Source of the DNA: Limonium bicolor
Taxonomy: Eukaryota; Streptophyta; Magnoliopsida; Caryophyllales; Plumbaginaceae
Assembly (NCBI GenBank): GCA_023374045.1
Contig: CM041779.1
Span: forward strand, 295,564,167 to 295,628,166
DNA length: 64,000 nucleotides
Direction of reading: 5' to 3'
Under the pieces are notes generated by a model, which saw nothing but the letters and a program-made list of their open reading frames with translations, did not search any database and was not told the origin of the DNA. This document shows positions 21,889-61,327 of this stretch, piece by piece; position 1 is the stretch's first letter, and each line of letters begins with the position of its first letter. Made by a program: the position numbers and the translations under genes.

Positions 21889-22725
21889 CTGCAAGGTAGT
21901 GTAGCTTGCCAGGCCCATGCCATTGCGTAGTCGGTGGCTCAGCCCGCCATAGAAGCGGTCGACCAGGATCTGGTCTGAATATCCCAACCCTGGTAGAAGA
22001 CGGATTAGAGCGGTGAACTGAGAGTAGTAGTCGTCCACCATCATCTTGTCAGTCTGCTTCAGCGCGTCCAACTCTAAACGCTTCTTAGTCTGGACATGGG
22101 TGGGGTAGTACTTGGCTCTCAACAAGGCCGCGTACTGCTCCCAGCCAAAGTTAGGGTTGGCCACATGTTCGGCCCTAACTAGCTTCCACCTATCGCTCGC
22201 CGCATCCTTCAAGTAGAACGCAGCAAGTCACACCTTGGCTTCTGTAGGTATATCAAGTGTCTCAAAGGCGGTCTCTAGCTCTGAGATGTACCCCAAAAGT
22301 TTGGTGGGATCTGTCTCCCCTCTAAACCGTGGGGGTCGAAGGTCAGCGAGACTCTTCACCCAGTTTGGCTCCCGGGGCTGTGGTGGTGGAGCAGGTGGTC
22401 CCGCACTGGGCTGATAGCCCATGTGCCCCAGGGCGGCAGCAACGATCTCAACTATCGTCTGTCCACCCGGGATTTCAGCAGCCTCATCTCCTTCATCGCC
22501 ATGGCCTCGGCCTCGTCCTCTTCTTCCTGACATCTGAATAAGTATAAATGCACAGTAAGCTCGTGATTACAAAGGCTTTGGTCTAAGCATTTATAATAGC
22601 CTCTAAACAGTAAGATATTCCACCCTTATTGGTGGTTATCTGACTCAGCTCACATTTCTATCTCACACCCAAACCCATGACTATTACTCTAACTCGGTAC
22701 CTACTCTAGTTCGGTAACTCTAGTC

Positions 22726-31600: not shown

Positions 31601-32842
31601 ATTAACAATTTATAAAGTTTGGGGCTATTTTATAATTTATAAATGTTTAAGTGCAAAACTGGAATTTAGTATGGGGCGAATTCATAATTAGATGAAATAT
31701 AAGTACTCTTCCAGAAATTTAGAAGAATTAAATATTAAACTATAGTTTATAAGTTATTAAGTAACTATTATAAAGTTTTGGGGTGAAAATGAAATTTATG
31801 GGAAGTTATATGTGAAAGCCGAAATTATTTGGGGTTGTATAGTAATTAAAGAAACTATAAGTGTTCATTTCGGCAATTAAAGGAATATAATATTAAAACT
31901 ATAGGTTATAATTTATTATGTAAAGGTTATAAGATTTTCGGGGTTAAATTGTAATTATAAGAGATATTTTGTTAAGGCCGAAAATTTGTGGGGCCAAGAT
32001 GTAATTTTCAAAAGTTATAATGTCCAAATGGTAAATATCGAAATATTAGTGGTGGATTTGTAATTTAATTAAAAGAGGGATTAAAACTATGCAATATAAT
32101 GTGATTAGAGTTAAAATGTAAAGTTTATGAATTATTGGGGTTGTTTTGTAAATAACCAAAAATATAGGGGTAAGTATTTGAATTTAAATAATTATAGGTC
32201 CTATGTGAATATTTGGAGGAGTTAGAAAAAGAATTTTGATTAAAGGGGTTATGGAATTAAAACTATGGGTTATATAGTTATAAGGAATTTAATTGTAACC
32301 AATTAATATTATTTGTGGTTAAGTGGAGAATAATAAAAAATAAAAGGAATATTATGTCCATGCGTGACATATAAATATAATTGGGGAATTATAAAGTTGT
32401 TGTGTCATTTAGGCAATTATAAACATTTAACATAAATAATACATGAATATATCTATACATTAAAGGATTAAAAAATAAATTAAAGGAAATGACAAAATAA
32501 GTTATACATTAAATCATAAGGTAATTAAAAGAAATTACCACACCATACAGGTTTTATAAATTAAGACTATATAATTTGTAAGTATATAAATACCTTAAAC
32601 ATCTATAAGGTTAAGAGGTTAAAGAGACTGTCTAAGCGTAAAGAAGTAAACCTCACATGAAATAACGAATACGAAATCGTTTCATCATCCGATCAAATTA
32701 TTATACGAGAGTAATATATAAATTAACACTCTCAGTTAATCCTATTCTAGGACTATACTTGACCAGATGTTCACCAGGATATATTCAATTGCAATCTACG
32801 GTGAATGGTATTAGATTCTTGCAACTTGCTTGCTACCGGATT
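28682..32842 (+). repeat. Tekay-type LTR, left part (LTR8), split by E2
   Basis: Starts TGAAATACCCCAAATC. Its right edge, TTGCTTGCTACCGGATT, matches a conserved LTR segment (compare CTACCGGATTACACCGG at 50530), which resumes after E2 at 47314. The middle is very AT-rich (31100-32600), with many runs such as TTATAAGTT, and I see no palindrome array there. No coding sequence. Confidence 0.75.
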
Positions 32843-33467
32843 TGAAATACCCCAAACCTTGGTATGTTGTTTAAACATTGAAATATGGTATATTAAGACT
32901 AAAAAGAGTCTAAGAAACATTAGTAAACAATTTAAACCATAGAAAACACAATAAATTACCTTAAAGTCAATATGGGCAAAAATGTGCTCTAAGCTTGGGA
33001 AAAGTTTGGTTAAGACCTAATAAGCTTACCAAGACTTTACTTAGGTGTTAATGAATATAATAAACCAATTACCAAAGAAAACCAAGCTTGAAAACAAGTT
33101 AAAACACAAAATGTGCTTTAAGGAGTCTTAAAGCACATTTTTGAAAAAAATTGTCTTGTAAATGGGTTTTGAGTGGCTAAATGTCCATCATTACTCTTTA
33201 ATTAACATGTGTACTACTTAGTATCACATTAGGAGGTCTAAATCAATGGGAAATCAAAACTTTCACAATTATTTGCCTTGTTTTGGTGAATAGTAACCAA
33301 ATTAAGCAAGTTTATAACATAAGTCAAATAAGTAATTTAATTGGTCAACTAAGACCAAAATACCCCTAAACACATTAAGGGGGCCGGTTTTTATGGTGGT
33401 GAGTCACCACTTATGCTTGCTTATTAAGTAAAGAGATGATGACTAATAGTTACTATTTGCTTTAACA

Positions 33468-33475
33468 TATAAATA
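33468..33475 (+). promoter_or_regulatory. TATA box of E2 5' LTR
   Basis: TATAAATA about 625 bases into the LTR, followed by a pyrimidine-rich leader (CATTCTCTCATTTCTCTTC). Confidence 0.6.
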
Positions 33476-33781
33476 TCTTCCAAAAGCAAACTCCAAACTC
33501 ATTCTCTCATTTCTCTTCATTTCCCACGTCTTCTACCTTCCTTCTTGCTCACATTCATGGTTATGCTACAGCACCACCACCATTCTTCATCTTCAACCTC
33601 TTGTAATTCCTAGCTCCCTTTGCCAAAGCAAAAACCAAGACCACCATTCTCTTTGTCTTGCCAAGCTCTTCAACTTCATCCTTTCAAAACTCCAAGAGCT
33701 CCATTTCGGTGCCAAGACGAATCTCCATGGGAGGAGCTTGAGCTCATCTCTTCACATATTATTGTTCTCCTTGGCTTCAAG

Positions 33782-34277
33782 GTAAGGAAACTCAAAGAAA
33801 AATAACATTTCCTTCATGTTTTTATGTTCACCGAAAATCACCATTAATGGCGTCTTTACCATGCTTTGTTCTAGCTTCATTCCAATCCTTCAAGGACTAG
33901 GTGGAGTCCTCTCTTGCTACATATCCAAACTCTCTTTCATTTCCAAGGTAAAACAATCATCTTAATGTTCTAAGACAATATATGTATCTAGGGTTTACAA
34001 TGAGATGAAGCATAAAGCTTGAATACTCATTACATTGTTCGTATATTGATTAGAAGTTGACAAGCAACTAAAAGCCTTGCCGATTTAGTCAAGGAGACAA
34101 GAAATAAGTTTGTGAGGAAAAGAGGTAAATGTGTTAACCTAATGTAATTTAAAGCCTTAGGAGAAATGAGCTTATGTTGCTTATTAAAACTACTTAAGGA
34201 GCCAATGGTGAATGACCTAGTAAATGTTCTCAAGGAGACTATTAAAAAGGCATATGTATTGTTGGGTGTATTTGCAG
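33782..34277 (+). other. Candidate three-intron leader in E2 LTR
   Basis: Introns 33782-33874, 33948-34053 and 34125-34277 with donors AAG|GTAAGG, AAG|GTAAAA, GAG|GTAAAT and acceptors TTCTAG, GATTAG, TTTGCAG. All are at places equivalent to those in E1 and LTR5. Confidence 0.45.
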
Positions 34278-35108
34278 GTCAAAGGCAAATATAATGTGGG
34301 AAATTCAGTGTTTATGGTTTATGCATTTTAAGGGCCTAAGAACCATGTTATTTAAGGGCCTAAGTGCCAAGCAATTTAAATAATGCACTATATTGTGATA
34401 TAGTGTAAGTTTGGTGAAGTTTTGTGTATAAGGACGTTCTTGATGGAATTGAGTGTTCTTAGGTGTTTGATGGTAAAAAAAAAAGTGTTTTGGTGTAACA
34501 AGATGTTAGTAGAACCCATATCGAAATTTAGGTAATGTATAAGAAGTTTTAGGTGTTTAAAATGAGTTTTGGTGAGTTAGGAAGTGTTTAGAATGATTAA
34601 GTGTTCTACTAGTGAAAGAAACATGCATTAAGGTATTCTAAGATGTAAAAAGGACTTAGGCAATATTTTAGAGGATTTAGAATGCAAATGAGTGTATTGG
34701 GATACTTCAAGATCATGGTGAGATCGTGTTTAGGACTTGTGCAATGTTGGTGAATAAGGAAGAAGTGATGTGTTGCATGAAGGAGCTATAAACTTGTAGA
34801 GATATTCAAGGAGTTTGGTTAGGAAGAAAAGATGCTTGAGAGATGATGTTGTAGTAGTGAGGGAACATTTGGGACTAGTGGTAGTTATAGGTATAAAACA
34901 CCACATGAAAACTTAGTGAAAAACATTGCATGTGCTAACCTTTGTATAAGAATTTGTGTAATGTTGAGGAGGTTTTTGGTGAGTGATTTAAGGAGTTTAA
35001 TGGATGTCTTAAGGGGTGTTTGAAGTGCCAAATGTGGTTAGAACATACTAGGGCACTATGAGGTGAACTTTGGAGTTAAATGAGCAATTAAAAACAAGGG
35101 TCTGGAGC

Positions 35109-35513
35109 AGACCGACCTTGGGGACCGGACCTGCAAGGTCGGTCGAGCCCAGTTTACCCTGCGAGAAATGGTCTCTGGAATGGACCGACCTTGGGGACCG
35201 GACTTGCAAGGTCAGTCGGGCATGGATTTTTGGTACAGATTAAGTCTCTAGAATAGACCGACCTTGGGACCGAACTTACAAGGTCGGTCATGCCTAAATC
35301 TTTGTACGTAAGTGAGTCTCGGGAATCGACCGATCTTGGGACCGAACTTGTCAAGATCGGTCGGGCCTGAATTTCCAAAGGGGAAAAACTCTTGGGAATA
35401 GACCGACCTTGTGGACCGAACTTGCAAGGTCGGTCGAAGTAGAATTTTCTGACGGTAATATGTTCTGGAATGGACCGACCTCGTGTAAGGTCGGTCGGTA
35501 AGGTCGGTCGGAC
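35109..35513 (+). repeat. Palindrome array GACCGACCTT / AAGGTCGGTC
   Basis: Six inverted pairs spaced 55-70 bases, separated by variable sequence often ending in CTGGAAT.GACCGACC. Each pair can fold to a 9-11 bp stem. Confidence 0.9.
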
Positions 35514-36872
35514 CAAAACTTGTAAAAAAAAAAAACAAACAAAAGTGGCTTAAGTAGTTAACCCTAGGGGGTATAATGAAGGTAATCAAGGGTGAGTTTA
35601 GGCATTAGATACTGTCATACAATCATGTAAATGCTTAGTAACCGGAAGTTAAATATGTTAAATAACCGACATTATTAATTATGTTTAGGTACTATGCTTG
35701 GCGGGTCACTTTCACAGCAAGGACCTAGGTATGGTTTTCTTGTAGTCTGTTGCCTACCGGTTTACACCGGCTTGTGTGTTGTTTGTTTTTCTGTGTGTTT
35801 ATGACCTTGTAAGATTAAGGCATGTAATGAGTTTACAGTTGTTTAAGTTATTGTATCGGAAAGATGTGTCTCATTTCCCTTGTGTGTGTGTGTCTAACAT
35901 GTCCTAAATACTTGCTTGTGAATTTGTTGATTAAGTCCAACAATGGGACTTCTAACAAGTGCTAACCGGGGAAGTGAGGAGTCCGGTAGTTCCGGCCACG
36001 CGTGTGAGTATGGGAGTCGATGTCATAACCGGTTCGATTCTCTTTGTATGTTAAGGTTGTCTTCTCTTTTGGTTTTCAACCTTCCCTTTAGCTTAACCAA
36101 AGCTATTTTACTGACTCACGTCGGGCCACAGGGGCATACTATGTTTTGTTCGGTGTGCTTGGATCTCTATATCCGACGCACCTGTGTGTTAAGTTATTCG
36201 TTCAATTTAACAGGATGGTAACGAGTTATGTAACGAGCTTAGCATGAGTTTGGCAACATTCTCTAGGCTCTCCATGTGATCTAATTGTGTTGGTTTGTTT
36301 CCCAAAAGGATTCGTTCTTGTATGTTATGTGTGTTGTTGTTATGCAATACTCTTGCTATGATATATATGTTGTATGTTTAAAACGAATGCCATGTCATCA
36401 TGACAATTAGTTGCGCGTATCCCGGTAGCCGATGGGCTGCGCGTTAACCATACCAGCCAAGGGTTGCTGACCCCCTCGGGGGCTCCATATTTATATTCGC
36501 AGGATGAGGATCGAAGAAGCTGAGTGGCTGTAGATCTTGGTTGATGGTATACTTTTGATACATTTTGGGTGGTAGGCCCGGGATGCGCCTGTGCTCCCGT
36601 GGCGGTATATTTTGGATAATGAATACATTACAGTGACAGTTTATAGTGATGGTTGTAAATAAATACTCGGTATTGTATATTATGTATTTATGGTTTAGTT
36701 CTATGCTCGGGAGTCTGATCATCAGACCGGTACACTTGTATTTATTCTGCCTTGTTAACCACGTGGTTGGTTAACGGCGTTGTAGCACCGAACCGTTAGT
36801 TATTGTTTAGTTGTTTATTTCCGCTGTGATTCAGGTAAATTGTTAAGTACGTTGTAGGGGTGTTACAAAAAG

Positions 36873-36900
36873 TGGTATCAGAGCGAAGTATCGCTCTGAT
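36873..36900 (+). promoter_or_regulatory. Primer-binding site and overlapping hairpin, E2
   Basis: TGGTATCAGAGC at 36873-36884, five bases after the LTR. ATCAGAGCGA (36877-36886) pairs perfectly with TCGCTCTGAT (36891-36900) across the loop AGTA. Confidence 0.92.
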
Positions 36901-37759
36901 GGCTAGAATACCGAGCTTAGGTATATACCGAGTTAGGAAACCTAGCTACAGTTATTTGAGTGAACAATTATGGAGGGTTAACCACTAACTAAGTGTGAAA
37001 GTACCTTATTGTCGGGAAGATGTTACAATTGTTGGACCGATAAGTTTGAAAGCATAATGCTAATGAATGTTCGTGTGAATTCAGATGTCAGGTAGACCAC
37101 GAGGTCGAGGCCGCGGGCGCGGCATTGGTTATACAGGGAACCAAGGAGAGAACCCTACAGCGTAAGTCATGGCCGACGCTGTTGCGGCCGCCGTAGCCCA
37201 GATGGTCCCACAGTTGGTAGTTGCGATACAGCAGGGGCAACAGCCCGAAGTTCAACCACCACCGCCACTGCCACGAGAGACCAACTAGGTCAAGGCGTTG
37301 GCTGATTTGAGACCCCCGTCGTTTAGTGGGGAGACCGACCCTAGTAAGCTGGAGGCGTACATCTCCAAGATGGAGACCGCCTACGAGACCTTGAATGTGC
37401 CCGAGGAGGTCAAGGTCCGTCTTACCGCTTACTATCTGAAGGGTTCGACACAGAGTTGGTGGAAGTTGGTACGGGAGGGCAGAGTTGCTGGCCCTACCTT
37501 TTAGTGGAGGGAGTACACGGCTCTGCTGCGAGCCAAGTACTACCCGATACACGTGCAAGAGGCCAAGCGCCTGGAGTTGGACAATCTGAGACAAGGGGAT
37601 AAGATGACGGTAGTTGAGTACTACTCCGCTTTCATCAGACTTATCCACCTGCTGCCGGATGTGGGTTACTCAGATCGGATCCTAGTGAACCGTTTCTATA
37701 ACGGACTGAGCTACCGCCTACGCTATGGTATGGGGCCGAGCGGATATACTACTTTGCAG

Positions 37760-37855
37760 GTAATGAACCACAGTGTGATGTGAATAAGTATGTACAATGT
37801 GTGAATGAAATTGTGAGTTTGATTTGCGGGGCATAACTAACACCCTAAATAATAG
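37760..37855 (+). other. Probable gag intron 1 of E2, phase 0
   Basis: TTGCAG|GTAATG ... AATAATAG|GAGTGC, 96 bases, with CTAAC about 20 bases before the acceptor as a possible branch site. The gap contains stops; without it the flanking frames join. Confidence 0.7.
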
Positions 37856-38114
37856 GAGTGCTATCATGCCGCTGCTATAGTAGAGATCACCGTCCGTCTG
37901 AGGGACAAGGAGAATGCGCTCAAGCGCAAGGCCACGAGCGAGGGTCAAAGCACGCAAGGGTACGGGGGAGGGAAGAAGAAAAAGCCATACCCCCAGTCCC
38001 AAAAAGGACAGCAACTGGGTGGCAAGGGTCAGACCCAGACCACCACTGCTGAGGAGCCGTTGCAGCTCACCTATGCATATGCGGCTAAGCCCCTGTGCTC
38101 TCAACCCTTCAAGG

Positions 38115-38194
38115 GTAACTAATTAGTTCCGAATATCGAGTTTAAGTGTGGGATGTTAGAATGTGAAGTATGTACTGAATGTGTGATGTGCTAG
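38115..38194 (+). other. Probable gag intron 2 of E2, phase 1
   Basis: AAGG|GTAACTAA ... TGCTAG; an alternative acceptor three bases on keeps the same frame. Splicing joins ...SQPFKG to the zinc-knuckle frame, as in copy A and E3. Confidence 0.7.
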
Positions 38195-38610
38195 CAGCTA
38201 GCACGGGCTCTGGATCCGATCGCCACTACCATTGCAAGTGGTGCAAGGGAGACAACCCCGGCAAGGACTGCAAGGGAGATGATGTGCAGTGCTGATTCTG
38301 TAAGAAGATGGGGCATCGTGACTACAAGTGCTTCCAGAACCCGAATGGCAGAAACTACAGACCTAAGGGGCAGTGGAAGGGCAAGGCCACCGTGACTACC
38401 GATGGCCCGAAGACGGCTAACCAGCCACCAACCGATCAGAGGTACATTGATTCCCAGAAGGGGAAGGGGTCGGGATCCGGCAAGGCTGCCCTGCATGTAG
38501 TGGACCGGTCTGAGGCGCCAGGACCCTCTTCTAGACCAGGTACCGCCTAAACCGTTGAATGAATAAGTGATTGCATACCGCATTTCATGCATGCGTGTTA
38601 GTGAGTCTAA

Positions 38611-39423
38611 ATGTACAACCATGTAAGTAAAGAGTTAAAGTATAGTGTGGAAACCCCTAAATTAGGTAATCTGAAAAATCTAGGAACCTTCAATATCTAT
38701 TATCCAATCCCACCCACACCGAACCCCGAAGAGACAACCATCAGCATCACCGAATTCCCAATGGAGCAATGTCAGGTTATCCAGCCAGGTATGATACTTT
38801 TAAACGGATACCTGACACCGGAAGCACAAATCCACATCATCAGGCGATCCAACGAACTTGGAGCAGCACCTGGAGGTTTCTACACACTTGAATACCCAAG
38901 CGGATCGAAAATGAAATTGAAGATGATGTGCATGGGTAAGGACTGGAATCCTTACACCAAGACATACCAAGACGTGCGAGCTGAAGATGGAGTAACGGTA
39001 CCGATGATACCTGAGGAGTTCCTTACGGTCGTTAACCACGACGTGAGAATTGCTCAGCAAGTTGAATCGGATTCAATACCAAGTGTTAAAACAGATTTAT
39101 GTATTGTGAACTTCTACCAGAAAGATGGACGGTTAGGGTTACACCAAGATAAGGATGAGTCACCCGAGTCTCTAAGTAAGGGAGTACCTGTGGTGTCTTG
39201 GTCCATTGGTGATACCGCAGTGTTTGTGTACAGCGAGCAGAAGCGTGGTGATCTCGCAAAGAAGTTAGTATTGAAATCAGGAGATGTATTAATCATGGGT
39301 GGGTAGTAAAGGATGCTTTACCACGGTATCAAGAAGATCAAACTGAATACCGCACCTTCGACAGTGATCAATGCCACACATATGAAACCGGGACGTTTGA
39401 ATTTGACTTTCAGGCAGTTTTAA
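38611..39423 (+). CDS. AlkB-like 2-oxoglutarate/Fe(II) dioxygenase carried by retrotransposon E2 (two in-frame stops)
   Basis: A non-retroviral enzyme frame between gag and protease. ATG at 38611 opens 231 codons; TAG TAA follow at 39304-39309, then the same frame runs on to the stop at 39421. Visible landmarks: GGFY and LKMMCMGKDW (about residues 88-114), CIVNFY, then the iron ligands HQD (H178, D180), GDTAVFVY, KSGDVLIMGG, the third ligand in LYHG (H238), and the 2-oxoglutarate arginines in RLNLTFRQF (R262, R268). The six-residue R-R spacing equals that of E. coli AlkB (R204, R210). The LKMMCMGKDW region resembles plant ALKBH1-type proteins, which remove methyl groups from DNA or RNA. Its role in the element is unknown; protecting or unmasking the element's own nucleic acid is a guess. 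The stops lie between GG and RMLYHG, so the truncated product would lack H238 and both arginines. Confidence 0.9.
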
Positions 39424-39551
39424 GCCTTGTGTAATCATGTAATTGATGAAGCCAGATGTATGTTAAGGATGTTATGTATATGTTAGTTATGTTGACAGGG
39501 TGAACCAACTTACGGTGTAAAGAGTGTGTTAATGAATAAAGAGATGTTGTT

Positions 39552-42500
39552 TTGGAAGTATATCAACCGTGTTGTTACTGTATACTTATGAAGTTTGCCA
39601 ATGAATTAGGCTGTGCACTCGGAACGGGAGGTATACTGGGCGTTTGTAATGAGGCAGAAGCCGGCAAGAGCGGCACAATCCTCACCGATACCTTTCCAGT
39701 CAATGGCGTGGATGCTTCAATCTTGTTCGACTCCGGAGCCTCACATACATTTATCTCGCTATCTTTTGCGAAGAGGCTGGGGTTAGACAGTGAAGAGATG
39801 CCAGACTTTCTAGTCACTCTCCCGTTGAAAGAGCGGATCAGGTGTACCCGCTGCCACAGAGATGTTGTTGTACGAATTCAAGAAGAAGAGTTTCCGATCG
39901 ACTTGATAGAGTTCGAGGGACTTGGTTTTGATGTGATTATTGGGATGAACTGGTTGGAGTGGTACAAGGGCAGAATCCTGTGTGCCGAGCATTGTCTGCT
40001 TCTTCGGAGTCCGTCTGGGGTTACTATATCTTGCCGCCAGAGGCCCAGAGAGCCTTCGACTCAGATCATCACCGCCATGGCCATGTATCGTGAACTACGA
40101 CGAGGGAATGATGTATACCTCTGCTATGTCCAGGACATAGAGAGAGACCCAGAGTTTAGCCCAGATGTGCCGGTAGTGACGGAGTTTCCTGATGTATTTC
40201 ATAAGGAACTGTCGGGCATGCCGCCAGCACGGGAAGTTGAGTTTGAGATTGATTTGGTTCCGGGCACCGGACCAATTGCGAAGGCGCCCTATCGTATGGC
40301 TCTAGTAGAGATGACAGAGCTCAAGGAGCAGCTGAGAGACCTACTCGACAAGGGATTTATCCGCCCTAGCGTTTCACCATGGGGAGCGCCGGTCCTCTTC
40401 GTGAAGAAGAAGGACGGTAGCCTCCGCCTTTGTATCGACTATCGAGAGCTGAATGTAGTTACGGTGAAGAACCGTTATCCTTTACCACGCATCGACGACT
40501 TATTTGACCAGTTGAAAGGAGCATCAGTATTCTCCAAGATAGATTTACGATCCGGTTACCATCAGATTGCTATCCGGGAAAGTGATATTGAGAAAACCGC
40601 ATTCAGAACCAGATATGGACATTATGAGTTTACAGTTATGCCGTTTGGTTTATCCAATGCACCAGCCAAGTTCACGGACTTAATGAAACGCTTCTTCCAA
40701 GATCAGTTGGACAAGTCAGTGGTAGTCTTCATCGATGATATTCTTGTGTACTCGAAATCGAAAGGTGAGCATGAAAGCCACCTAAGAAGTGTGTTGCTAA
40801 CGTTGCGAAAGAATCAGCTGTATGCTAGATTTTCAAAGTGTGAATTTTGGTTGAACCAAGTATCTTTTCTTGGTCATGTGATTTCTGAAGTCGGGATCGC
40901 TGTTGATCCGGAAAAGATAGATGTAGTGCGCACCTGGCCTAGGCCGAAGACAGTTACCGACATACGGAGCTTCCTCGGTCTGGCAGGATATTACAGGAGG
41001 TTTGTGATGGACTTCTCCAATGTCTCGAAGCCGATGACTTCCTTAATGAAGAAAGATGCACCATTCGAGTGGACAGTCGAATGTGAGAGTTCTTTCCAGA
41101 GTCTCAAGGATGCTCTGACATCTGCACCAGTCCTGACATTACCAGACGGTTCAGATGGTTTTGAGGTCTATTGCGACGCATCAGACAGGGGTATGGGTTG
41201 TGTGTTGATGCAACACGGGAAGGTTGTAGCATACGCCAACCGACAGCTGAAGAAGCATGAAGAGAACTACCCTACCCACGACTTAGAATTGGGTGCCATA
41301 GTCTTCGCATTGAAGATATGGCGACATCATTTGTATGGGGTAAGCGTGACAATTTATTCTGACCACAAAAGTTTGAAGTACTTGTTCACTCAGAAAGAGT
41401 TGAACATGAGACAAAGAAGGTGGGTTGAGTTCTTAAACGACTACGACATTAATTTACAGTACAAGGAGGGAAAAGCAAATGTGGTAGCTGATGCATTGAG
41501 TCGCCGAGCACACTCTCTCCATTCGCTAGTCTCTCACTCTAGCTTGGTTGAAGAGGTGCGGAGTGCTCAAATGACAGATCAGTATATGTTTGAGATCAGG
41601 CAGAAGCTTATTAATGGCACATTCGAGGGCCAGAAGTACGACTTCCGACTCCACGATGATGACCTGATTAGGCTTAATGGCCAACTGTGTATTCCGGGGA
41701 GTAGCGCTGAGCTGAAGGAGCGCATACTGAGTGAATCCCACTGTTCTACGACTTCGATTCACCCCGAAGCTTCAAAGATGTATAAGGGTATGAAACGTTA
41801 TTTTTGGTGGGCTGGAATGAAGAAAGATGTGAATTACTATGTATTGAGGTGTCTCACTTGTTAGAAGGTCAAGTTTGAGCACCGAAGGCCTGGTGGTATG
41901 GTACAGCCAATGCCAGTGCCTGAGTGGAAGTTCCATGACATTTCTATGGACTTCGTAGTAGGGCTTCCGCCTACAAGGGGAGGTCTGAATATGATTTGGG
42001 TTGTTGTTGACCGACTGACCAAGGTGGCTAGATTCATACCGATGAAGGACACTTGGAAAGCGGCAAAGCTTGCAGAACTCTTTGATAGAGAGATTGTAAG
42101 ACATCATGGGGTACCGAAAACGATTGTGTCTGACAGGGATACCAGATTCCTCTCGAGGTACTGGAAATCCACACGGGAAGCGCTTGGTACCGAGCTGAAG
42201 CTAAGTGCGGCGTTCCACCCGCAGACTGATGGTCAGAGTGAGCGCACCATCCAGACACTCGAGGATATGTTACGTGCATGTGCACTTGACTTTCAGACCA
42301 GTTGGATTGATAAGTTACATCTGATTGAGTTTAGCTACAACAACAGTTACCATGCTTCGATCAAGATGTCTCCCTTCCAGGCTTTGTACGGTAGACCATG
42401 CCGCACGCCATTATGCTGGGATGAGTCGAGTGAGACGGTCATTATAGGACCAGAGTATCTGGAGCAAGTACAGTCAGAAGTACGCCAGATCCGGGCTAAC

Positions 42501-42989
42501 ATGAAGGCAGCTCAGGATAGGCAGAAATCGTACGCCGATGTGCGCAGACGTGACCTTGAGTTCGTCATGGGCGATCAGGTATTTCTTAGAGTATCCCCCA
42601 TGAAGGGAGTGTTTCGTTTTGGCCATAAAGGCAAGTTGAGCCCAAAATATGTGGGGCCTTATGTTGTGACGGAGCGGATAGGCCCGGTAGCTTACAGGCT
42701 AGATTTACCTGCTGAGCTGGGCAAGGTACACGATGTATTTCATGTGTCCTAGTTAAAGAAATATATGTCTCATCCATCTCATGTACTTCAGCCTGAAAGG
42801 CTAACCTTAGAGCCGACCATGCGATCAGTGGAGACTCCCGTACGGATTCTGGACACTAAGACTCGAGACACTCGCCATAAGTCTGTGAGACTGGTGAAAG
42901 TCCTCTGGTCTAACCAGGACGTCGAGGAGGCCACCTGGGAGCTGGAAGATAAGATGAAGGCGAAGTACCCGTCGTTGTTTACTTCTTAG
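39552..42989 (+). pseudogene. pol: pol of E2: protease, reverse transcriptase, RNase H, integrase, chromodomain
   Basis: One frame of 1146 codons with only two stops (41862 and 42750). Protease has DSGAS (D60). Reverse transcriptase shows [19 protein letters not shown] and the catalytic FIDD (D395, D396). RNase H starts at FEVYCDASD (D542). The integrase zinc module spans about 41740-41864 and ends CLTC just before the first stop. The core has D in DISMDFV, D in IVSDRDTRF and E in DGQSERTIQ (about 41940-42250). After the second stop, PVRILDTK...VLWSNQDVEEATWELE (about 42837-42960) is a chromodomain, the mark of Tekay-type chromoviruses, which may guide insertion to heterochromatin. ATG at 39552 is only the first in frame; a spliced or frameshifted join to gag is more likely. 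Both stops fit CAG to TAG changes. Confidence 0.92.
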
Positions 42990-43270
42990 TTTTTGTATGT
43001 ATAAGGTACGGGGTGTACCCCTATTTAAGGGGGGTAGAGCCGTTTCGGTTATGTGTGTACGACATGTATTTAAATACATCGTCTATGTTATGTTGTTACC
43101 TTGCTATGTTACAGACCGTGGTGTCTGAATGATGTTATGTTGTTTGGACTTTGTATCCGATGCTATGTAAGTATGTTGTTAATGTTGTTATGGAAGTATT
43201 GTTTTATAAGTATTCCCCGTGTTCTAATATTAAGATATGTGGGAAGTATGAACTTTGGGGACAAAGTTCT

Positions 43271-43286
43271 TTTAAGGGGGGTAGAT
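43271..43286 (+). promoter_or_regulatory. Polypurine tract of E2
   Basis: TTTAAGGGGGGTAGAT directly before the 3' LTR. A second AAGGGGGGTAGA lies at about 43026-43037, about 250 bases upstream, like a central or duplicated tract. Confidence 0.88.
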
Positions 43287-46200
43287 TGAAATACCCCAAA
43301 CCTTGGTATGTTGTTTAAACATTAAAATATGGTATATTAAGACTAAAAAGAGTCTAAGAAACATTAGTAAACAATTTAAACCATAGAAAACACAATAAAT
43401 TACCTTAAAGTCAATATGGGGAAAAATGTGCTCTAAGCTTGGGATAAGTTTGGTTAAGACCTAATAAGCTTACCAAGACTTTATTTAGGTGTTAATGAAT
43501 GTAATAAACCAATTACCAAAGAAAACCAAGCTTGAAAACAAGTTAAAACACAAAATGTGCTTTAAGGAGTCTTAAAGCACATTTTTGAAAAAAACTGTCT
43601 TGTAATTGGGTTTTGAGTGGCTAAATGTCCATCATTACTCTTTAATTAACATGTGTACTACTTAGTATCACATTAGGAGGTCTAAATCAATGGGAAATCA
43701 AAACTTTCACAAATATTTGCCTTGTTTTGGTGAATAGTAACCAAATTAAGCAAGTTTATAACATAAGTCAAATAAGTAATTTAATTGGTCAACTAAGACC
43801 AAAATACCCCTAAACACATTAAGGGGGCGGTTTTTATGGTGGTGAGTCACCACTTATGCTAGCTTATTAAGTAAAGAGATGATGACTAATAGTTACTATT
43901 TGCTTTAACATATAAATATCTTCCAAAAGCAAACTCCAAACTCATTCTCTCATTTCTCTTCATTTCCCACGTCTTCTACCTTCCTTCTTGCTCTCATTCA
44001 CGGTTATGCTACAGCACCACCACCATTCTTCATCTTCAACCTCTTGTAAATCCTAGCTCCCTTTGCCAAAGCAAAAACCAAGACCATCATTCTCTTTGTC
44101 TTGCCAAGCTCTTCAACTTCATCCTTTCAAAACTCCAAGAGCTCCATTTCGGTGCCAAGACGAATCTCCATGGGAGGAGCTTGAGCTCATCTCTTCACAT
44201 ATTATTGTTCTCCTTTGCTTCAAGGTAAGGAAACCCAAAGAAAAATAACATTTCCTCCATGTTTTTATGTTCACCGAAAATCACCATTAATGGTGTCTTT
44301 ACCTTGCTTTGTTCTAGCTTCATTCCAATCCTTCAAGGACTAGGTGGAGTCCTCTCTTGCTACATATCCAAACTCTCTTTCATTTCCAAGGTAAAACAAT
44401 CATCTTAATGTTCTAAGACAATATATGTATCTAGGGTTTACAATGAGATGAAGCATAAAGCTTGAATACTCATTACATTGTTTGTATATTGATTAGAAGA
44501 TGACAAGCAACTAAAAGCCTTGCCGATTTAGTCAAGGAAACAAGAAAGAAGTTTGTGAGGAAAAGAGGTAAATGTGTTAACCTAATGTAATTTAAAGCCT
44601 TAGGATAAATGAGCTTATGTTGCTTATTAAAACTACTTAAGAAGCCAATGTTGAATGACCTAGTAAATGTTCTCAAGGAGACTATTAAAAAGGCATATGT
44701 ATTGTTGGGTGTATTTGAAGGTCAAAGGCAAATATAATGTGGGAAATTCAGTGTTTATGGTTTATGCATTTTAAGGGCCTAAGAGCCATGTTATTTAAGG
44801 GCCTAAGTGCCAAGCAATTTAAATAATGCACTATATTGTGATGTAGTGTAAGTTTGGTGAAGTTTTGTGTATAAGAATGTTCTTGATGGAATTGAGTGTT
44901 CTTAGGTGTTTGATGGTAAAAAAAATAATGTGTTTTGGTGTAACAAGATGTTAGTAGAACCCATGTCGAAATTTAGGTAATGTATAAGAAGTTTTAGGTG
45001 TTTAAAATGAGTTTTGGTGAGTTAGGAAGTGTTTAGAATGATTAAGTGTTCTACTAGTGAAAGAAACATGCATTAAGGTATTCTAAGATGTAAAAAGGAC
45101 TTAGGCAATATTTTAGAGGATTTAGAATGCAAATGAGTGTTTTGGGATACTACAAGATCATGGTGAGATCGTGTTTAGGACTTGTGCAATGTTGGTGAAT
45201 AAGGAAGAAGTGATGTGTTGCATGAAGGAGCTATAAACTTGTAGAGATATTCAAGGAGTTTGGTTTGGAAGAAAAGATGCTTGGGAAATGATGTTGTAGT
45301 AGTGAGGGAACATTTGGGACTAGTGGTAGTTATAGGTATAAAACACCACATGAAAACTTAGTGAAAAACATTGCATGTGCTAACCTTTGTATAAGAATTT
45401 GTGTAATGTTGAGGAGGTTTTTGGTGAGTGATTTAAGGAATTTAATGGATGTCTTAAGGGGTGTTTGAAGTGCCAAATGTGGTTAGAACATACTACGACA
45501 CTATGAGGTGAAGTTTGAAGTTAAATGAGCAATTAAAAACAAGGGTCTGGAGCAGACCGACCTTGGGGACCGGACCTGCAAGGTCGGTCGAGCCCAGTTT
45601 ACCCTGCGAGAAATGGTCTCTGGAATGGACCGACCTTCGGGACCGGACTTGCAAGGTCGGTCGGGCATGGATTTTTGGTACAGATTAAGTCTCTGGAATA
45701 GACCGACCTTGGGACCGAACTTACAAGGTCGGTCATGCCTAAATCTTTGTACGTAAGTGAGTCTCAGGAATCGACCGATCTTGGGACCGAACTTGTCAAA
45801 ATCGGTCGGGCCTGAATTTCCAAAGGGGAAAAACTCTCGGGAATAGACCGACCTTGTGGACCAAACTTGCAATGTCGATCGGAGTTGAATTTTCTGACGG
45901 TAATATGTTCTGGAATGGACCGACCACGTGTAAGGTCGGTCGGTAAGGTCGGTCGGACCAAAACTTGTAAAAAAAAACCAACAAAAGTGGCTTAAGTAGT
46001 TAACCCTAGGGGGTATAATGAAGGTAATCAAGGGTGAGTTTAGGCATTAGAACCTGTCATACAATCATGTAAATGCTTAGTAACCGGAAGTTAAATAAGT
46101 TAAATAACCGACATTATTAATTATGTTTAGGGACTACGCTTGGCGGGTCACGTTCGCAGCAAGGACCAAGGTATGGTTTTCTTGCAGTCTGTTGCCTACC

Positions 46201-47308
46201 GGTTTACACCGGCTTGTGTGTTGTTTGTTTTTCTGTGTGTTTATGACCTTGTAAGATTAAGGCATGTAATGAGTTTACAGTTGTTTAAGTTATTGTATCG
46301 GAAAGATGTGTCTCATTTCCCTTGTGTGTGTGTGTCTAACATGACCTAAATACTTGCTTGTGAATTTGTTGATTAAGTCCAGCAATGGGACTTCTAACAA
46401 GTGCTAACCGGGGAAGTGAGGAGTCCGGTAGTTCCGGCCACGCGTGTGAGTATGGGAGTCAATGTCATAACCGGTTCGATTCTCTTTGTATGTTAATGTT
46501 GTCTTCTCTTTTGGTTTTCAACCTTCCCTTTAGCTTAACCAAGACTATTTTACTGACTCACGTCGTGCCACAGGGGCATACTATGTTTTGTTCGGTGTGC
46601 TTGGATCACTATATCCGACGCACCTGTGTGTTAAGTTATTCGTTCAATTTAACAGGATAGTAACGAGTTATGTAACGAGCTTAGCATGAGTTTGGCAACA
46701 TTCTCTAGGCTCTCCATGTGATCTAATTGTGTTGGTTCGTTTCTTAAAAGGATTCGTTCTTGTATGTTATGTGTGTTGTTGTTATGCAATACTCTTGCTA
46801 TGATATATATGTTGTATGTTTAAAACGAATGCCATGTCATCATGACAATTAGTTGCGCGTATCCCGTAGCCGATGGGCTGTGCATTAACCATACCAGCCA
46901 AGGGTTGCTGACCCCCTCGGGGGCTCCATATTTATATTTGCAGGATGAGGATCGAAGAAGCTGAGTGGCTGTAGATCTTGGTTGATGGTATACTTTTGAT
47001 ACATTTTGGGTGGTAGGCCCGGGATGCGCCTGTGCTCCCGTGGCGGTATATTTTGGATAATGAATACATTACAGTGACAGTTTATAGTGATGGTTGTAAA
47101 TAAATACTCGGTATTGTATATTATGTATTTATGGTTTAGTTCTATGCTCGGGAGTCTGATCATCAGACCGGTACACTTGTATTTATTCTGCCTTGTTAAC
47201 CACGTGGGTGGTTAACGGCGTTGTAGCACCGAACCGTTAGTTATTGTTTAGTTGTTTATTTCCGCTGCGATTTAGGTAAATTGTTAAGTACGTTGTAGGG
47301 GTGTTACA
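43287..47308 (+). repeat. 3' LTR of E2
   Basis: TGAAATACCCC ... GGGGTGTTACA, 4022 bp, followed by the target duplication GGATT. Differences from the 5' LTR are scattered single bases and small indels. Confidence 0.94.
45554..45957 (+). repeat. Palindrome array GACCGACCTT / AAGGTCGGTC, E2 3' LTR
   Basis: Copy of 35109-35513. A few half-sites have lost pairing here (for example at about 45798 and 45865-45880), so some stems are imperfect. Confidence 0.88.
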
Positions 47309-47313
47309 GGATT

Positions 47314-47630: not shown

Positions 47631-48738
47631 TGAAATACCCCAAACCTTGATATGTTTTTTAAATGTTAAAACATGGTATTTAAAGGCTAAAAAGTGCCTT
47701 AGAAACATCAGTGGACAATTTAAACCGTAGTAAAACACAATAAAGCACTAAGACACAGCTTGAGCAAAAACATGCTCTAAGCTTGGAGTGAACTTGGTTG
47801 GGACCCAAAGGACCTACCAAGACTTGGTAATATTCAATTATGATTTAATAAGGCTAATTAAGTCCTTAGGAAACTTTGGTAGACAGTTAAACCAAACAAA
47901 ACACAAGAAAATACCTTAAAGTCAATAAGAGCAAAAATGTGCTCTAAGCTTGGGATAAATTTGTATAAGACCTAAAGGTCATACCTATACCTTATAAATA
48001 TGTTAATGAACATATTAAACCAATTACCAAAGAAAACCAAGCTTGAAAACAAGTTAAAACACAAAATGTGCTTTAAGGAGTCTTAAAGCACATTTTTGAA
48101 AAATTATCTTGTAAATGAGTTTTGAATGGCTAAATGTCCATCATTACTCTTTAATTAACATGTGTACTAATTAGTATCACATTAGGAAGTCTAAATCAAT
48201 GAGAAATCAAAAATTTCACATGTATGTGCCTTGTTTTTGTGAATAGTAACTAAAATATGCTAGTTTATGACATAAGTCAATATAAGTAAGTTAATTGGTC
48301 AACAAAGACCAAAACACCCTTATTATTAAATGGGAGCCGGTTTTTGTAGGGTGAGTCATCACCATTTACAAATCAATTAAAGAAAGAAAGAAATAAAGTA
48401 AAGTACTATTCTACTTTAATTACATAAATATCTAAACAAGAGCACTCTCTCACCTCATTATCTTATTTCCTTCACTCACCACCGTAGCCTTCTCTATCCT
48501 CCCTTCTTGAAATTGTTTTTGCTACAGCAAAAACATACCATATCCATCTTTGAATGCTTGTATCTTCTAGCTCCATACACCAAATCAAATTCCAAGACCA
48601 TATTTGTCTTAGTTAGGTCAAGCTCTACACTTCTCTCTTTTCAAATCTTCAAGAACTCCATTTTGGTGCCATGAAGATTCTCCATTGAAGGAGCTTGAGC
48701 TTACCTTTTCATGCCTTGTTATTCTCCTTTGCTTCAAG

Positions 48739-49238
48739 GTAAGGAAAGTCAAAGAAAAATTTCATTTCCTTTTGTTTTCATAAGTGACCGAAATCACCTT
48801 CTTCATGGTGTTTTCTTTTGCTTTGTTCTAGCTTCATTCCAACCATTCAAGGGCTTGGTGGAGACCTCTCTTGTTACATATTCAAGTTCTCTTTCAAATT
48901 CAAAGGTAAATATCATTTTAGTGTATTAAAACACTTATGCTAAACTAGGGTTTGTATATGAGTTTAAGTGTGAATTCTTAAGCTCATTACCCTTATATGT
49001 ATATTGATTAGAAAGTTGACAAGTGATCAAACTCCTTGCTGATTTTCGGTTTAAGGAAACAAGAAAGAAGTTTGAGAGGAAAAGAGGTAAACAAACTATC
49101 TTAATGTAGTGTAAATGCCTTAGGAAAATGAGCTTGATTTGCTTAATAAAATACCTAAGGAGCCAATGGCAAATGACCTAGTAAAATGCTCTCAAGGAAA
49201 CTATTAAGGGGCATATGTGATGTTGGGTGTATTTGCAG
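48739..49238 (+). other. Candidate three-intron leader in LTR5
   Basis: Introns 48739-48831, 48906-49011 and 49087-49238, of 93, 106 and 152 bases, with the same donor and acceptor words as E1 and E2. Confidence 0.45.
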
Positions 49239-50045
49239 GTTAAAGGCAATATATTATGTGGGAAATTCAGTGTTTAAGGTTTATGCAATTTAAGGGCCTA
49301 AGAGCCATGTTATTTAAGGGCCTAAGTGCCAAGCAATTTAAGTTTATGCACTATATTGTGATGTAGTGTAAAATTTGGTGAGTGTTGTGTGTGAGAATAC
49401 TCTTGATGGATTTTAGGTGTTCTTGAATGAAATAAGGTAAAAACCTAAGTGTTTGGATGTGAGAATATACAAGAGAAGCTATGGCAAAATTTGGAAAATG
49501 TATAAGAAGTTCTAAGTGTTTTAAATAAGTTTTGGTGAACTAGGAAGTGTTAAAGGTGAACAAGTGTTTTACTAGGGAAGAAAGCATGTATTAAGGTGAT
49601 TTAGAGTGATACAAGGATTTAGGTATTATCTTGGAAGTTCTAGGAATTCAATGTGTGTTTTGAGGATGTATTAAAGTCTTGGAGAAGTTTGTTTAAGGTT
49701 TAGGAATGTTGATGTACAAGGAGGAAATGATGTTTAGGTAAGATGTGAAAAAGGAGATTTAGTTATTAAGAAAAGATGTTTGAGAGATGATGTTATGATG
49801 GTAAGGAAACATTTTTGGCATAGTGGTTATCATAATTATGAAACATCACTTAGAGGAACTAAAGAGAAAACATTATAAGTGATAGGAATTTTGGTAAGAA
49901 ACATTGTAAGTGTTTATGGAGTTATAAAATGAGTTTTATGGTTGTTGTATGAAGGGTTAAATGTGCCAAATGATGTTAGAACACATTATGAGGCTTGAGG
50001 AGAAGTTTGGAGAAAGTTTGACAAGTTTTGGACAAGTTCTGATGT

Positions 50046-50796: not shown

Positions 50797-53700
50797 TGTA
50801 ACACCCCAACTACCACCATTCACATCACATCAAACTGCAGCGGAAAACACATCTCATCACATTACTTAATTCAATGGTGTTACACGCCGTTAACCACCAA
50901 CGTGGCTAACAAGGCTAATACATTTACATTGTATCGGTCTGATGGACCAGATTCCCGAGCAACTACACAATACAATCCTTATACCATTTCCAACATTTAT
51001 TATACACACACATTCCCACTGTACCGAGTATTTACCAACTAATGCCGATAACAATTTCGGTCTTACTACGCCTACAATGCATACGCCATTTAAATGGCTA
51101 CCCATGTATAAACATCTACCCCATCCTACTCTCGAACGGCTGCCAGCTCCTTGTACCTGAAATAGAAAGAGGAGAAAAGGGTGGCCCCCAAGGGGCTCAG
51201 CACCTTTGCTGGTATGGTAATCCCGCAGTCCGCATGCTACCGGGCCACGCCCAACTAATTGTCGTCTTAGCATGCGGTTGATTATATTTAAATCATGCAT
51301 GTAAACCATAAACACACATCACATTGCATGCGCCCAACAATAGGGCTCAACAAACATCCAACACATCCACACATAACAAATCTCATATTGTTTCCTTTAA
51401 CGCTAGAGTGACTCTCCTCTAACGGAGCTACCTCCTTAATAGACGACACTTACCCATTAACCGGGTTATCCTTAACTGCCTCTTATTATAAACCAGATTT
51501 CACATCCATATTCCATATCCACAATAACACATAACACCACAAGTACGGTTCTCATTAGGAACCTTCCACCATAGTTAATAAACACGGTGAGCCTAGAGAT
51601 TGTTGCCAACCCCATGCTAAGCTCGTTACATATCTCGTTACCGTCCTGTTAATTTGAACGGTTAACATAACACCAAGGTGCGTCGGATATAGTAATCCCA
51701 AGCACACCGAAACATCATTTGTATGCCCCTGTGGCCCGACGTGAGTCAGTAAACTAGCTTTGGATAAGCTAAGGGAAGGTTGAAACCAAATTGGAATACA
51801 ACCCATACATACACCAAGAGAGTCGAACCGGATATGACATCGACTCCCGTCCTCACACGCGTGGCCGGAACATGACCGGACTCCTCACCCCCCCATTAGT
51901 ACATATATACTTATAAATAAGTAGTTAGAGATCCATTATGGAGCCTACCACATCCACACACCATACGGTATCATAACCGAGTTAAGCACACAAGGGAGGT
52001 TCACACACTTGCATACAACAACAATATCCAACTAACTCACACATAGCCGTGGTTAGAACGTTCCCAAGGTTTGGGTCGTTAACTCCGAATACCGATCTCT
52101 CACATGTTCCTAGTTCTAGTTAGCTAAGGTTCAACACTTATTTGAGGTTAAACGGTATCGGAGACCAGATGCGCCACATAAATGAATTACTATAAACTCA
52201 TTACAGGTTTTAATCTTACAAGGTGGCAAACACTCAGAAAAACACATTGGCATACAAGCCAGTGTAATCCGGTAGGACACAGGTTGCAAGAAAACCATAC
52301 CTGTCACCGGAGTCCACTCTACCATGTCCACTTACGTTCCTCGAACAATTCTCGAACAACTGGTACATTGCAATTACTTTCATTAACATTGGGGTAACAT
52401 GATTGCTTAATAACTAATGCCCATAGTTAACCCCGTCATCCCGTTGTACTTAATTTATTTATGTGATCGTGAGTTCAAAACTTACATATTCATTCTCACA
52501 CTTGTTTATACTTCCAATGGCCTTTAAAGGTCACCAGACAAGGCCTAAACATCATCTAAAACCATTATCATTCACTTCCCCATCTTAAACACACTTAATA
52601 ACACTCTCTGGTGCACTTTTAGGGTGGTCCGGGTTTGTGTCCGAGTTTACAAACCCGGACCATCTCATCGCAATACTCTCTGCCCAATTTTTCACCTGGT
52701 CCGGGTTTGTATCCGAGTTTACAAACCCGGACCACCTACAGAATTTACTCTCTGGTATGTTTTTGGGGTGGTCCGGGTTTAGGTTCTTGTTTGCAAACCC
52801 GAACCACTCCAGTATTAGTCCAGAACATCATTTTTCAGCCACTCTTCAACCACCAAACCAAGCCTAACCTTCTCCTAATTTTTCTACTTAAATCCTAACA
52901 TGTTTTAACACTAATTTAGCACCTCAAACCTCATCTGATTCCTTGTCTAATACATCACCCAATTCTTGCAAAATTCATCAACACTTGTGATATCTTTTCC
53001 TTAAGTACCTAAGTGGTGTTTCACCTTAAATGACCACTACACTAAAATGCTTCCTCACCTTCAATACATCATCTCCCAAGCATCTCCTCTTACTAACCAA
53101 ATCTTCTTTTCACAACTTCCTAAAATTCCTTTCTCAAAACCTTACCTAAACATCATTCTCTCCATACTCATCAATATTACCTAAACCTTAAACAACTTCT
53201 CCAAGACTTTAATACATCCTAAAAACTCTCATTGGATTTTCTAGGACTTCCAAGATAATGCCTAAATCCTTGTAGCACCTTAGAACACCTTAATGCATGT
53301 TTTCTTCCTTAGTGAAACATTTACTCATTCCTAACAATTCCTAGTCCACCCAAGTTCATTCAAGCACTTAAAACTTCTTATACATTTTACAAATTTTGCC
53401 ATGGGTTCTCTTAGCACATCATCATTCCAAAACTCATAGTTTTCACCATTAAGCACTCAAGAACACCTAAATCCATCAAGAACACCATCACACACAAGAC
53501 TTCACCAAATTTACACTACATCACAATATAGTGCACAATTTAAATTGCTTGGCACTTAGGCCCTCAAACAACATGGCTCTTAGGCCCTTAAATTGCATAA
53601 ACCTTAAACACTGAATTTCCACAATATATAAGCCTTTGACCTGCAAATACACACAACAAGGCATATGTTCTTTTACTAGTCTCCTTGAGAACACTTTACT

Positions 53701-55235
53701 AAGTCATTCACCATTTGCTCTTTAGGTAGTTTTAACAAGCATTATAAGCTCATTTCTCCTAAGGCATTAAACCACATTAGGTTAGTATATTTACCTCTTT
53801 TCCACACAATCTTCTTTCTTGTTTCCTTATAAAACCGGTAAGGTATTTGACTCCTTGTCAACTACTAAACAATATACCAACATTGAAATGAGTATATAAG
53901 CTTTATGCTTCATCTCATTGTAAACCCTAGGTTTACATTGTTTCAAAACATTAATGTAGTTGTTTTACCTTGATCTTTGAAGAGAGTTTGAACATCTATC
54001 AAGAGAGGACTCCACCTAGTCCATGAAAGGTTGGAATGAAGCTAGAACAAAGTCACACAAAGAGCATCATTAATGGACATTTTCGGTCAAGGTAAAAACA
54101 TGGAGGAAACATGATTTTTCTTTGAGATTCCTTACCTAGAAGCAAAGGAGGTCAATAATATGTAGAAATATAAGCTCAAGCTCCTTCAATGGTGGAACTC
54201 CATGGCACCGAAATGGGGCTCTTGAAGTTTTGAGAAGATAGACTTGAAGAGCTTGATGAGAGGAAGAAGATGGTGGTGTTTGTTTTTGATTTGGTTAAGT
54301 GAGCTATGAATTATAGACAATGGAAGTTGGTGTTGATGGTGGTGCTGTAGCAAACCGTAGAAGAGCAGCAAGAAGGGAGGAAGAAGACGTTGGAAGTGAA
54401 GGGAAATGAGAGAATGAAGATAAAACTTGCTTTTGGAGATATTTAAGCTAAAAGCAAATAGTACTTTTGCTTTGTCATTACTTAACTTATTTATTTGTTC
54501 AAATGTGGTGAGTCACACATGAAAAACCGGCCCCCTTATATCACCTAGGGGTATAATAGTCTTTGTTGACCAATTTAATTACTTATAACAACATATGTTA
54601 CAAACTAGCTTATTAAAGTTACTATTCACTAAAACAAGGCACATAGATGTGAAATTTTTGATTTCCCATTGATATAGACTTCCAAATGTGATACTATATA
54701 GTACACATGTTAATTAAAGAGTAATGATGGACATTTAGCCATTCAAAACTCACTTACAAGACAATTTTTCAAAAACGTGCTTTAAGACTCCTTAAAGCAC
54801 TTTTGTGTTTTAACTTGTTTTCAAGCTTGGTTTTCTTTGGTAATTGATTTAATATGTTCATTAACATATTTATAAGGTATAGGTATGACCATTAGGTCTT
54901 ATACAAATTTATCCCAAGCTTAGAGCATATTTTAGCCCATATTGACCTTAAGGTATTTATTTGTGTTTTGTTTGGTTTCATTGTCTACCAAGGTTTCCTA
55001 AGGACTTAATTAGCCTTATAAAATCATAATTAAATATTATCAAGTCTTGGTAGGCTCCTTGGGTTCTAACCAAGTCCACTCAAGCTTAGAGCATGTTTTT
55101 GCTCAAACCGTGTCTTAGTGTTTTATTTTGTTTTACCATGGTTTAAATGGTTCATTGATGTTTCTAAGGCACTTTTTAGCCTTTAAATACCATAGTTTAA
55201 CATTTAAACAACATACCAAGGTTTGGGGTATTTCA
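50797..55235 (-). repeat. Solo LTR, Tekay type, minus strand (LTR6), target duplication GTGTG
   Basis: Plus-strand edges TGTAACACCCC and GGGGTATTTCA, 4439 bp, flanked by GTGTG at 50792-50796 and 55236-55240. Read on the minus strand it has the same parts: U3 stem (about 54775), leader donor (GCTTCTAG|GTAAGG at 54135), acceptor TTTGCAG (53641) and array (52624-52808). No interior, so it is a solo LTR. Confidence 0.92.
52624..52808 (-). repeat. Palindrome array GGTCCGGGTTTG / CAAACCCGGACC in LTR6
   Basis: Three inverted pairs, 60-70 bases apart, in the region where E1, E2 and LTR5 have other half-sites. The third pair is imperfect (GAACCAC). Confidence 0.87.
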
Positions 55236-61267: not shown

Positions 61268-61327
61268 ACTCGAGCTTAAAGAAATACCCTCTAACCTCAA
61301 GTATGCTTCCTAGCTGAAAATGACCAT

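Follow-up and report, generated by a model that had tools for sequence, protein, structure and literature searches.

The window analysed here (64,000 nucleotides of the Limonium bicolor assembly GCA_023374045.1, contig CM041779.1, positions 295,564,167 to 295,628,166 of the forward strand) contains one LTR retrotransposon (32843-47308, plus strand) that carries an AlkB-type dioxygenase between gag and pol. The best explanation, to which we assign a probability of roughly three in four, is that an ALKBH1-type Fe(II)/2-oxoglutarate dioxygenase entered a clade of Tekay-like chromoviruses by capture, in the simplest case a single one that preceded the split into lineages A, B and C, and that this AlkB would since have been retained, as an alternative exon within the intron that separates the gag zinc knuckle from the protease, for a Gag fusion acting on the element's own nucleic acid. 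Within this explanation, the proposed architecture is very probable.

The element is 14.5 kb long, with a 5' LTR of 4,025 bp (32843-36867) and a 3' LTR of 4,023 bp (43286-47308), whose ends were read and which are 97.8% identical (K2P 0.0207), corresponding to an age of about 0.8-1.5 Myr at two commonly used rates. The target-site duplication GGATT was read on both sides (32838-32842 and 47309-47313), a primer binding site, TGGTATCAGAGC, which we take to be of the initiator-tRNA-Met type, lies just inside the 5' LTR (36873-36884), and the polypurine tract AAGGGGGG (43274-43281) was assigned by position. Since LTRs, duplications and primer site all surround AlkB, it is cargo inside the retrotransposon and no neighbour, as the earlier note had proposed; a single insertion or a neighbouring gene is ruled out by the LTRs, the target duplications and the protease-anchored loci described below. 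Gag is encoded by exon 1 (37085-37759), exon 2 (37856-38114, delimited by comparison among copies) and exon 3 with the zinc knuckle (38198-38539), and its pieces match PF03732 (3.2e-12) and PF19259 (4.6e-4) in Pfam. The pol exon (39610-42989) encodes protease, RT, RNase H, integrase and, behind the integrase, a probable chromodomain just below the Pfam cut-off (PF00385, 2e-05, 24.8 bits against 25.1). All these features lie on the plus strand. The element in the window is a dead copy. In-frame stops interrupt gag four times (three in exon 1, one in exon 3) and pol twice (41862 and 42750), and the AlkB exon (38684-39423, 245 codons plus stop) has two adjacent ones (39304-39309). Because AlkB, gag and pol are all broken there, no functional statement can rest on this copy.

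Several other structures were seen in the window. A second element-like structure (2707-17071) has repeats at 2707-6182/12412-15862 (96.2% identical) and 6627-7349/16351-17071; about 550 bp of its repeat are 80% like the AlkB element's LTR, tblastn found no match to the AlkB element's gag or pol between the repeats, and the structure is perhaps a non-autonomous relative. Right behind the AlkB element lie two diverged LTR-like copies in opposite orientation (47631-49760 and 53123-55235), which are 81.5% identical to each other and about 79-81% to the element's LTR. A gag fragment on the minus strand (21889-22365) is 65% identical to the element's gag, and no pol like the element's was found near it (18.6 to 39.5 kb searched). 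Frames of another Ty3/gypsy type occur on the plus strand at 16928-18718 and 59390-63719, with matched pieces 24-46% identical to the element's pol. Tandem units of about 73 bp that carry GACCGACCTTG...CAAGGTCGGTC lie inside both LTRs (35061-35510 and 45506-45960).

The stop-to-stop frame at 38611-39306 matches the Pfam family 2OG-FeII_Oxy_2 (PF13532) at 3.6e-31, with 109.3 bits against a curated cut-off of 31.2. The iron ligands (H-x-D...H) and the arginine pair (Rx5R) lie in one window frame that runs up to 39423 across the two stops. Thus the HQD, LYHG and arginine motifs, described in the earlier note as one complete signature, are indeed present up to 39423, but the third ligand and both arginines lie beyond the stops, and the window copy is therefore unable to make the enzyme. 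Elsewhere in the family, seven cofactor residues were kept in 31/31 exons (the 30 chosen by Pfam score plus the window), and all were kept in 10 of the 14 gap-free protease-anchored loci, a residue being changed in the other four. An ENA relative without stops (P0001) was used for a structure model (pLDDT 95.6), for which the closest solved fold was rice OsALKBH1 (TM 0.92, 52% identity), followed by E. coli AlkB (about 31%) and then animal ALKBH1, while ALKBH5 chains were far from it in the structure comparison (15-16% identity). The window frame likewise had OsALKBH1 (5xeg, 1e-49) as its first match, in agreement with the ALKBH1 type suggested from the sequence at the outset. Named plant relatives include ALKBH1C/1D-like proteins. 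Viral contigs scanned with the window AlkB frame yielded no relative.

The family was surveyed in the window's own genome (2.92 Gb, 2,686 contigs), where it is very abundant; the loose candidate counts (38,325, 52,096 and 56,605) are not copy numbers. In the Pfam search the best 150 of 38,325 loose candidates were scored, and 149 of these 150 had no stop inside the match, as expected when the best scores are ranked first. The 30 best loci (L001-L030) comprised 26 of lineage A, to which the window belongs, and four of lineage B (L001, L008, L012 and L019), with 58-66% DNA identity between the A and B loci compared, over the stretch read. A second set, chosen independently of AlkB, consisted of the 30 best loci by protease region, window included. 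AlkB stood at the same distance upstream of the protease in 29 of them; in the thirtieth (L050) the middle of the AlkB exon was deleted and both exon ends were kept. Other copies thus carry the gene, and at one fixed place instead of the random sites that the earlier note had considered a sign of a one-off insertion. Five of the 30 protease-anchored loci had a full-length AlkB without stop or gap, and a sixth had one that was intact from residue 10 onwards, as would be anticipated of old copies. Lineage C, reached through the ENA protein P0144, comprised 141 scored places (68-74% identical to P0144), and on contig C2, the one contig compared by eye, none of its places was among those of the Pfam search; the two loci read (L061 and L062) both show the same gag-AlkB-pol order. 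An apparent further short intron just before the protease core was seen in these two C loci and was unseen in the A and B loci aligned.

Some of the copies lie close together. Two protease matches 5 kb apart (L043 and L044, C6:169559094 and 169564326) share both their AlkB stop and an altered iron ligand, and are a local duplication. Four AlkB loci about 10 kb apart lie on one strand at C1:497439466-497470353, and several further pairs about 10 kb apart occur among the places with the intron-1 joint (below); this spacing perhaps reflects tandem arrays of the element, perhaps with shared LTRs.

Between lineages A and B the AlkB exon is 70% identical and gap-free and the start of pol is 71-72% identical, while intron segments are 40-58% identical with 21-48% gaps and gag exon 2, at 46-53%, is almost as diverged as the introns. 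Six aligned AlkB exons (two each of A, B and C) have 245 codons and zero indels, with 53-59% of residues in common between A or B and C. Pooled over the A and B exons, dS was 2.05 (near saturation) and dN 0.216. For 22 A loci and 4 B loci (88 pairs; the window was left out, as were L002, L007, L017 and L020 for stops or frame shifts), dN/dS was 0.060-0.137 with a median of 0.107 (87 of the 88 pairs had a defined dS), instead of the value near 1 that the earlier note had associated with absence of function. Thus, with near-saturated dS and dN/dS about 0.1 between A and B, AlkB is selected cargo under purifying selection. The codons before the PGM motif are under weaker selection (pN/pS 0.18-0.68, on about 21 synonymous sites).

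The same filtering was seen within lineage A, where L003 as reference was compared with 36 further loci (14 gap-free protease-anchored ones including the window, 22 Pfam-chosen). Variants common to at least three A loci comprised 81 synonymous and 35 non-synonymous changes and no stops (per-site ratio of non-synonymous plus stop to synonymous changes 0.12), whereas those private to protease-anchored loci comprised 30 synonymous and 43 non-synonymous changes and three stops (ratio 0.44), suggesting that old changes were filtered and young ones, mostly post-insertion, much less so. That the window copy and most single copies of the protease-anchored set are broken would fit a functionless passenger that was picked up by chance and simply propagated with the element; but the near-saturated synonymous and few non-synonymous changes between lineages and the lower ratio of shared than of private variants disfavour such a passenger, which we consider extremely improbable.

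Gag is interrupted at the same places in A and B by three stretches that start with GT, the third of which was also read in both lineage C loci. In the window these are i) intron 1 (37760-37855, GT...AG); ii) intron 2 (38115-38197), for which an end at 38194 was replaced by 38197 from the spliced copy L065; and iii) intron 3, which runs from the gag donor either to the AlkB acceptor (intron 3a, 38540-38683) or, with AlkB skipped, to the pol acceptor (38540-39609). The AlkB exon starts at an AG acceptor, the upstream gag donor leaves one base, and the AlkB exon and pol both continue in the phase so left. The coding exon hence begins at 38684 and not at 38611, where the earlier note had placed the start; alignment with other copies, spliced ones included, shows 38611-38683 to be intron. 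Among protease-anchored loci, donor 2 is GT in 26/30, donor 3 is GT in 29/30, the AlkB acceptor is AG in 29/30 and the pol acceptor is AG in 30/30; intron 1, which falls outside 28 of these 30 stretches, is GT...AG in 30/30 Pfam-chosen loci.

Upstream of the AlkB exon, none of 26 A and 4 B loci has an in-frame ATG before a stop. Inside the exon, the first ATG stands at codon 26 or 36 in A and at codon 76 in B, and the two lineage C loci have none before the PGM motif, at which their first ATG stands; the exceptions are the window frame and ENA P0144, each with an in-frame ATG ahead of the exon. Lacking an upstream start of its own, AlkB would normally be expected to be translated by read-through from Gag. 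A free-standing AlkB gene with its own start is disfavoured; a point missing from the earlier note is that AlkB is instead an alternative exon behind gag, without its own upstream start in 30/30 A and B loci. Separate translation of AlkB from a start codon inside the exon, the mode supposed for ORF2 of the orchid elements discussed below, could draw on the ATG near the domain start in A and C, on the database entry P0001, which begins at such an ATG, and on the upstream ATG of the window frame and P0144. Yet the first ATG of all four B loci lies inside the domain, the residues before PGM are of equal length in the six aligned exons, and joints of gag to AlkB exist in the genome, leaving this route very unlikely.

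Read-through from Gag demands that inserted spliced RNAs show exact joints; this prediction was made and both joints were found. With up to 2 mismatches allowed, the joined gag|AlkB sequence occurred at 14 places in the genome (9 exact), the joined gag|pol sequence at 14 (8 exact) and the intron-1 joint at 646, whereas the reversed-sequence control gave 0 for each. One of the 14 gag|AlkB places and one of the 14 gag|pol places were read. The former (L065) precisely lacks intron 2 and the gag-AlkB intron and retains intron 1, and a further insertion interrupts its AlkB after about 60 nt; the latter (L067) precisely lacks all three introns, AlkB included, so that gag runs into pol. A third copy (L066) precisely lacks intron 1 and has introns 2 and 3 with AlkB present. 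L065 and L067 look like inserted spliced transcripts. The 646 intron-1 joints may descend from one or few amplified spliced founders; as junction copies possibly stem from few founders, they show that splicing happened and not how often.

Judging from the reading frames, splicing of the gag donor to the pol acceptor, which skips AlkB, would yield Gag-Pol, while splicing to the AlkB acceptor would yield a fusion protein in which the enzyme follows the zinc knuckle of Gag and ends at the AlkB stop. Behind this stop an AATAAA was found in 25/26 Pfam-chosen A loci and 30/30 protease-anchored loci, and in 1/4 B and 0/2 C loci; as a shared feature the poly(A) signal is weak, being nearly restricted to A. 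One gag donor joined to both acceptors, an AlkB that ends in a stop, and the AATAAA after it in A would also be compatible with an exon that is mainly a switch, ending translation after Gag and setting the Gag:Gag-Pol ratio, with catalysis secondary. However, a pure switch needs no 245-codon enzyme with dN/dS about 0.1 and kept cofactor residues, and the scarcity of the signal in B and C speaks against it as well; we regard the switch as improbable.

As to origin, the element sequences and four ENA proteins form one branch in the AlkB tree (UFBoot 88, SH-aLRT 71), which stands beside 23 plant host proteins picked from the relatives listed (95/99); a clade of the element AlkB with eudicot hosts was not rejected by the AU test (p 0.129). 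In the pol tree, built for A, B and C from partial sequences except in the case of the window, C groups with ENA P0238 and A with B and ENA P0256; together they make up a single branch (SH-aLRT 100) within a sample of 24 other Ty3/gypsy pols, which was picked from at least 120 matches and included no reference Tekay element. The branch order is the same in both trees. P0144 (AlkB) and P0238 (pol) both lie on ENA contigs of 26,561 bp, suggesting one contig. Another pol, P0332, is of plant Ty3/gypsy type although its 4.5 kb contig is attributed to Corynebacterium sp. MC-10, and is likely plant contamination of a bacterial assembly.

Relatives of the element without AlkB seem to exist in the same genome. 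Of the matches to P0252, 11 of the 41 listed run stop-free from before the zinc knuckle to the integrase; the one that was read, the related element L064, has a single frame of 1,459 residues that spans knuckle and protease, and tblastn found no AlkB in it. Given these one-frame relatives, the simplest reading is that the A/B/C clade gained both AlkB and the introns. A host transcript is a plausible source of the capture because AlkB is one exon and has a host-like FDIC motif. A candidate host ALKBH1 gene sought with the pattern MGNCAYATHTTYCAYGGNGT gave one place, and the 2.6 kb around it held no ALKBH1 by tblastn, indicating a chance match.

A Gag-AlkB fusion would bring an N-methyl eraser into the Gag ribonucleoprotein or particle, where it could demethylate the element's own RNA or single-stranded cDNA; as an outcome, host recognition of the RNA might be eased, or adducts that block reverse transcription cleared. 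Such action on the element's own nucleic acid is the likeliest function of AlkB, and a proposal we regard as evenly poised. OsALKBH1 is reported to act on 6mA with a preference for single-stranded or unpaired DNA (PMC10469495), and mobilization of ONSEN in Arabidopsis is enabled by ALKBH9B, which strips m6A from its RNA in stress granules (as told in PMC12786077). Alternatively, AlkB may be a selected real enzyme whose main target is host DNA 6mA or host mRNAs, opening chromatin or weakening silencing. OsALKBH1 is described in the same rice study as binding chromatin and impairing PRC2 (PMC10469495), and "DNA N(6)-methyladenine demethylase" of the ALKBH1C- or 1D-like kind is the name of several plant relatives. 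With AlkB predicted to be fused to the end of Gag that binds RNA, however, the element's own ribonucleoprotein is the more obvious target, and we consider a host target unlikely, though well worth keeping in view.

An AlkB domain in a Ty3/gypsy lineage, for which the earlier note knew of no standard lineage description, has a precedent: the Gypsy_Pa_2799 lineage of Phalaenopsis carries a paALKBH5-like 2-ODD, and a screen of 121 angiosperm genomes is reported to have found AlkB domains in Ty3/gypsy only in Phalaenopsis (PMC9289625). Both families are plant Ty3/gypsy elements with a fixed AlkB-superfamily domain, kept cofactor residues and many copies. As described (PMC9289625), however, Gypsy_Pa_2799 is an Ogre/Tat element of 25.5 kb with an Arg-tRNA primer site and dual RNase H, in which gag and pol share one frame and AlkB has an ORF2 of its own (565 aa); this AlkB is of the ALKBH5/9B class and removes m6A in vitro, whereas the family described here, known from its sequence alone, is chromovirus-like, 14.5 kb long and of the ALKBH1 class, with AlkB as an alternative exon between gag and pol. 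Measured against that description, it falls outside the Gypsy_Pa_2799 lineage by domain class, primer site and AlkB placement, and it appears to be an independent capture of AlkB, in another lineage and with another mode of expression. In the open-access literature (titles and abstracts among the matches listed), no report of AlkB in an LTR element was found beyond the orchid paper and a review citing it, and among the matches listed there was no earlier report of this element lineage, of the ALKBH1 class, or of alternative-exon expression with both splice outcomes visible in genomic DNA and conservation in three diverged lineages. The matches listed on introns and splicing concerned Ogre, BARE and ONSEN.

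With a second independent capture, what was a case from a single orchid genus becomes a pattern, suggesting that adenine methylation of RNA or DNA does restrain plant retrotransposons. More tentatively, alternative splicing may tag part of Gag with a demethylase, each particle then carrying an eraser for its own RNA or nascent cDNA, with ALKBH1- and ALKBH5-class erasers captured independently by different Ty3/gypsy lineages; if true, N-methyl marks would emerge as a level at which plant transposons are controlled in general. The predicted alternative exon also illustrates how an element could add an enzyme to Gag without losing Gag-Pol, inserted spliced copies make RNA processing readable from genomic DNA alone, and the three lineages provide material for activity assays and for the question of the target mark.

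Compared with plant ALKBH1C/1D and rice OsALKBH1 (5xeg, 5xoi), the element AlkB shares the fold, the cofactor residues and the FDIC motif before the domain, but it is without the host N-terminal part and the stretch before the catalytic core, consists of one exon and forms its own branch. The AlkB domains of Alphaflexiviridae, Betaflexiviridae and Closteroviridae (as cited in PMC9289625) likewise represent an AlkB captured by an RNA-replicating entity, the viral carriers being RNA viruses. Ogre elements too have an intron that only some of their transcripts lose by splicing; it lies between gag-prot and RT-RH-INT, and the available portion of the account mentions no enzyme within it (PMC6317226), whereas the family described here has three introns, the last of which houses an alternative coding exon.
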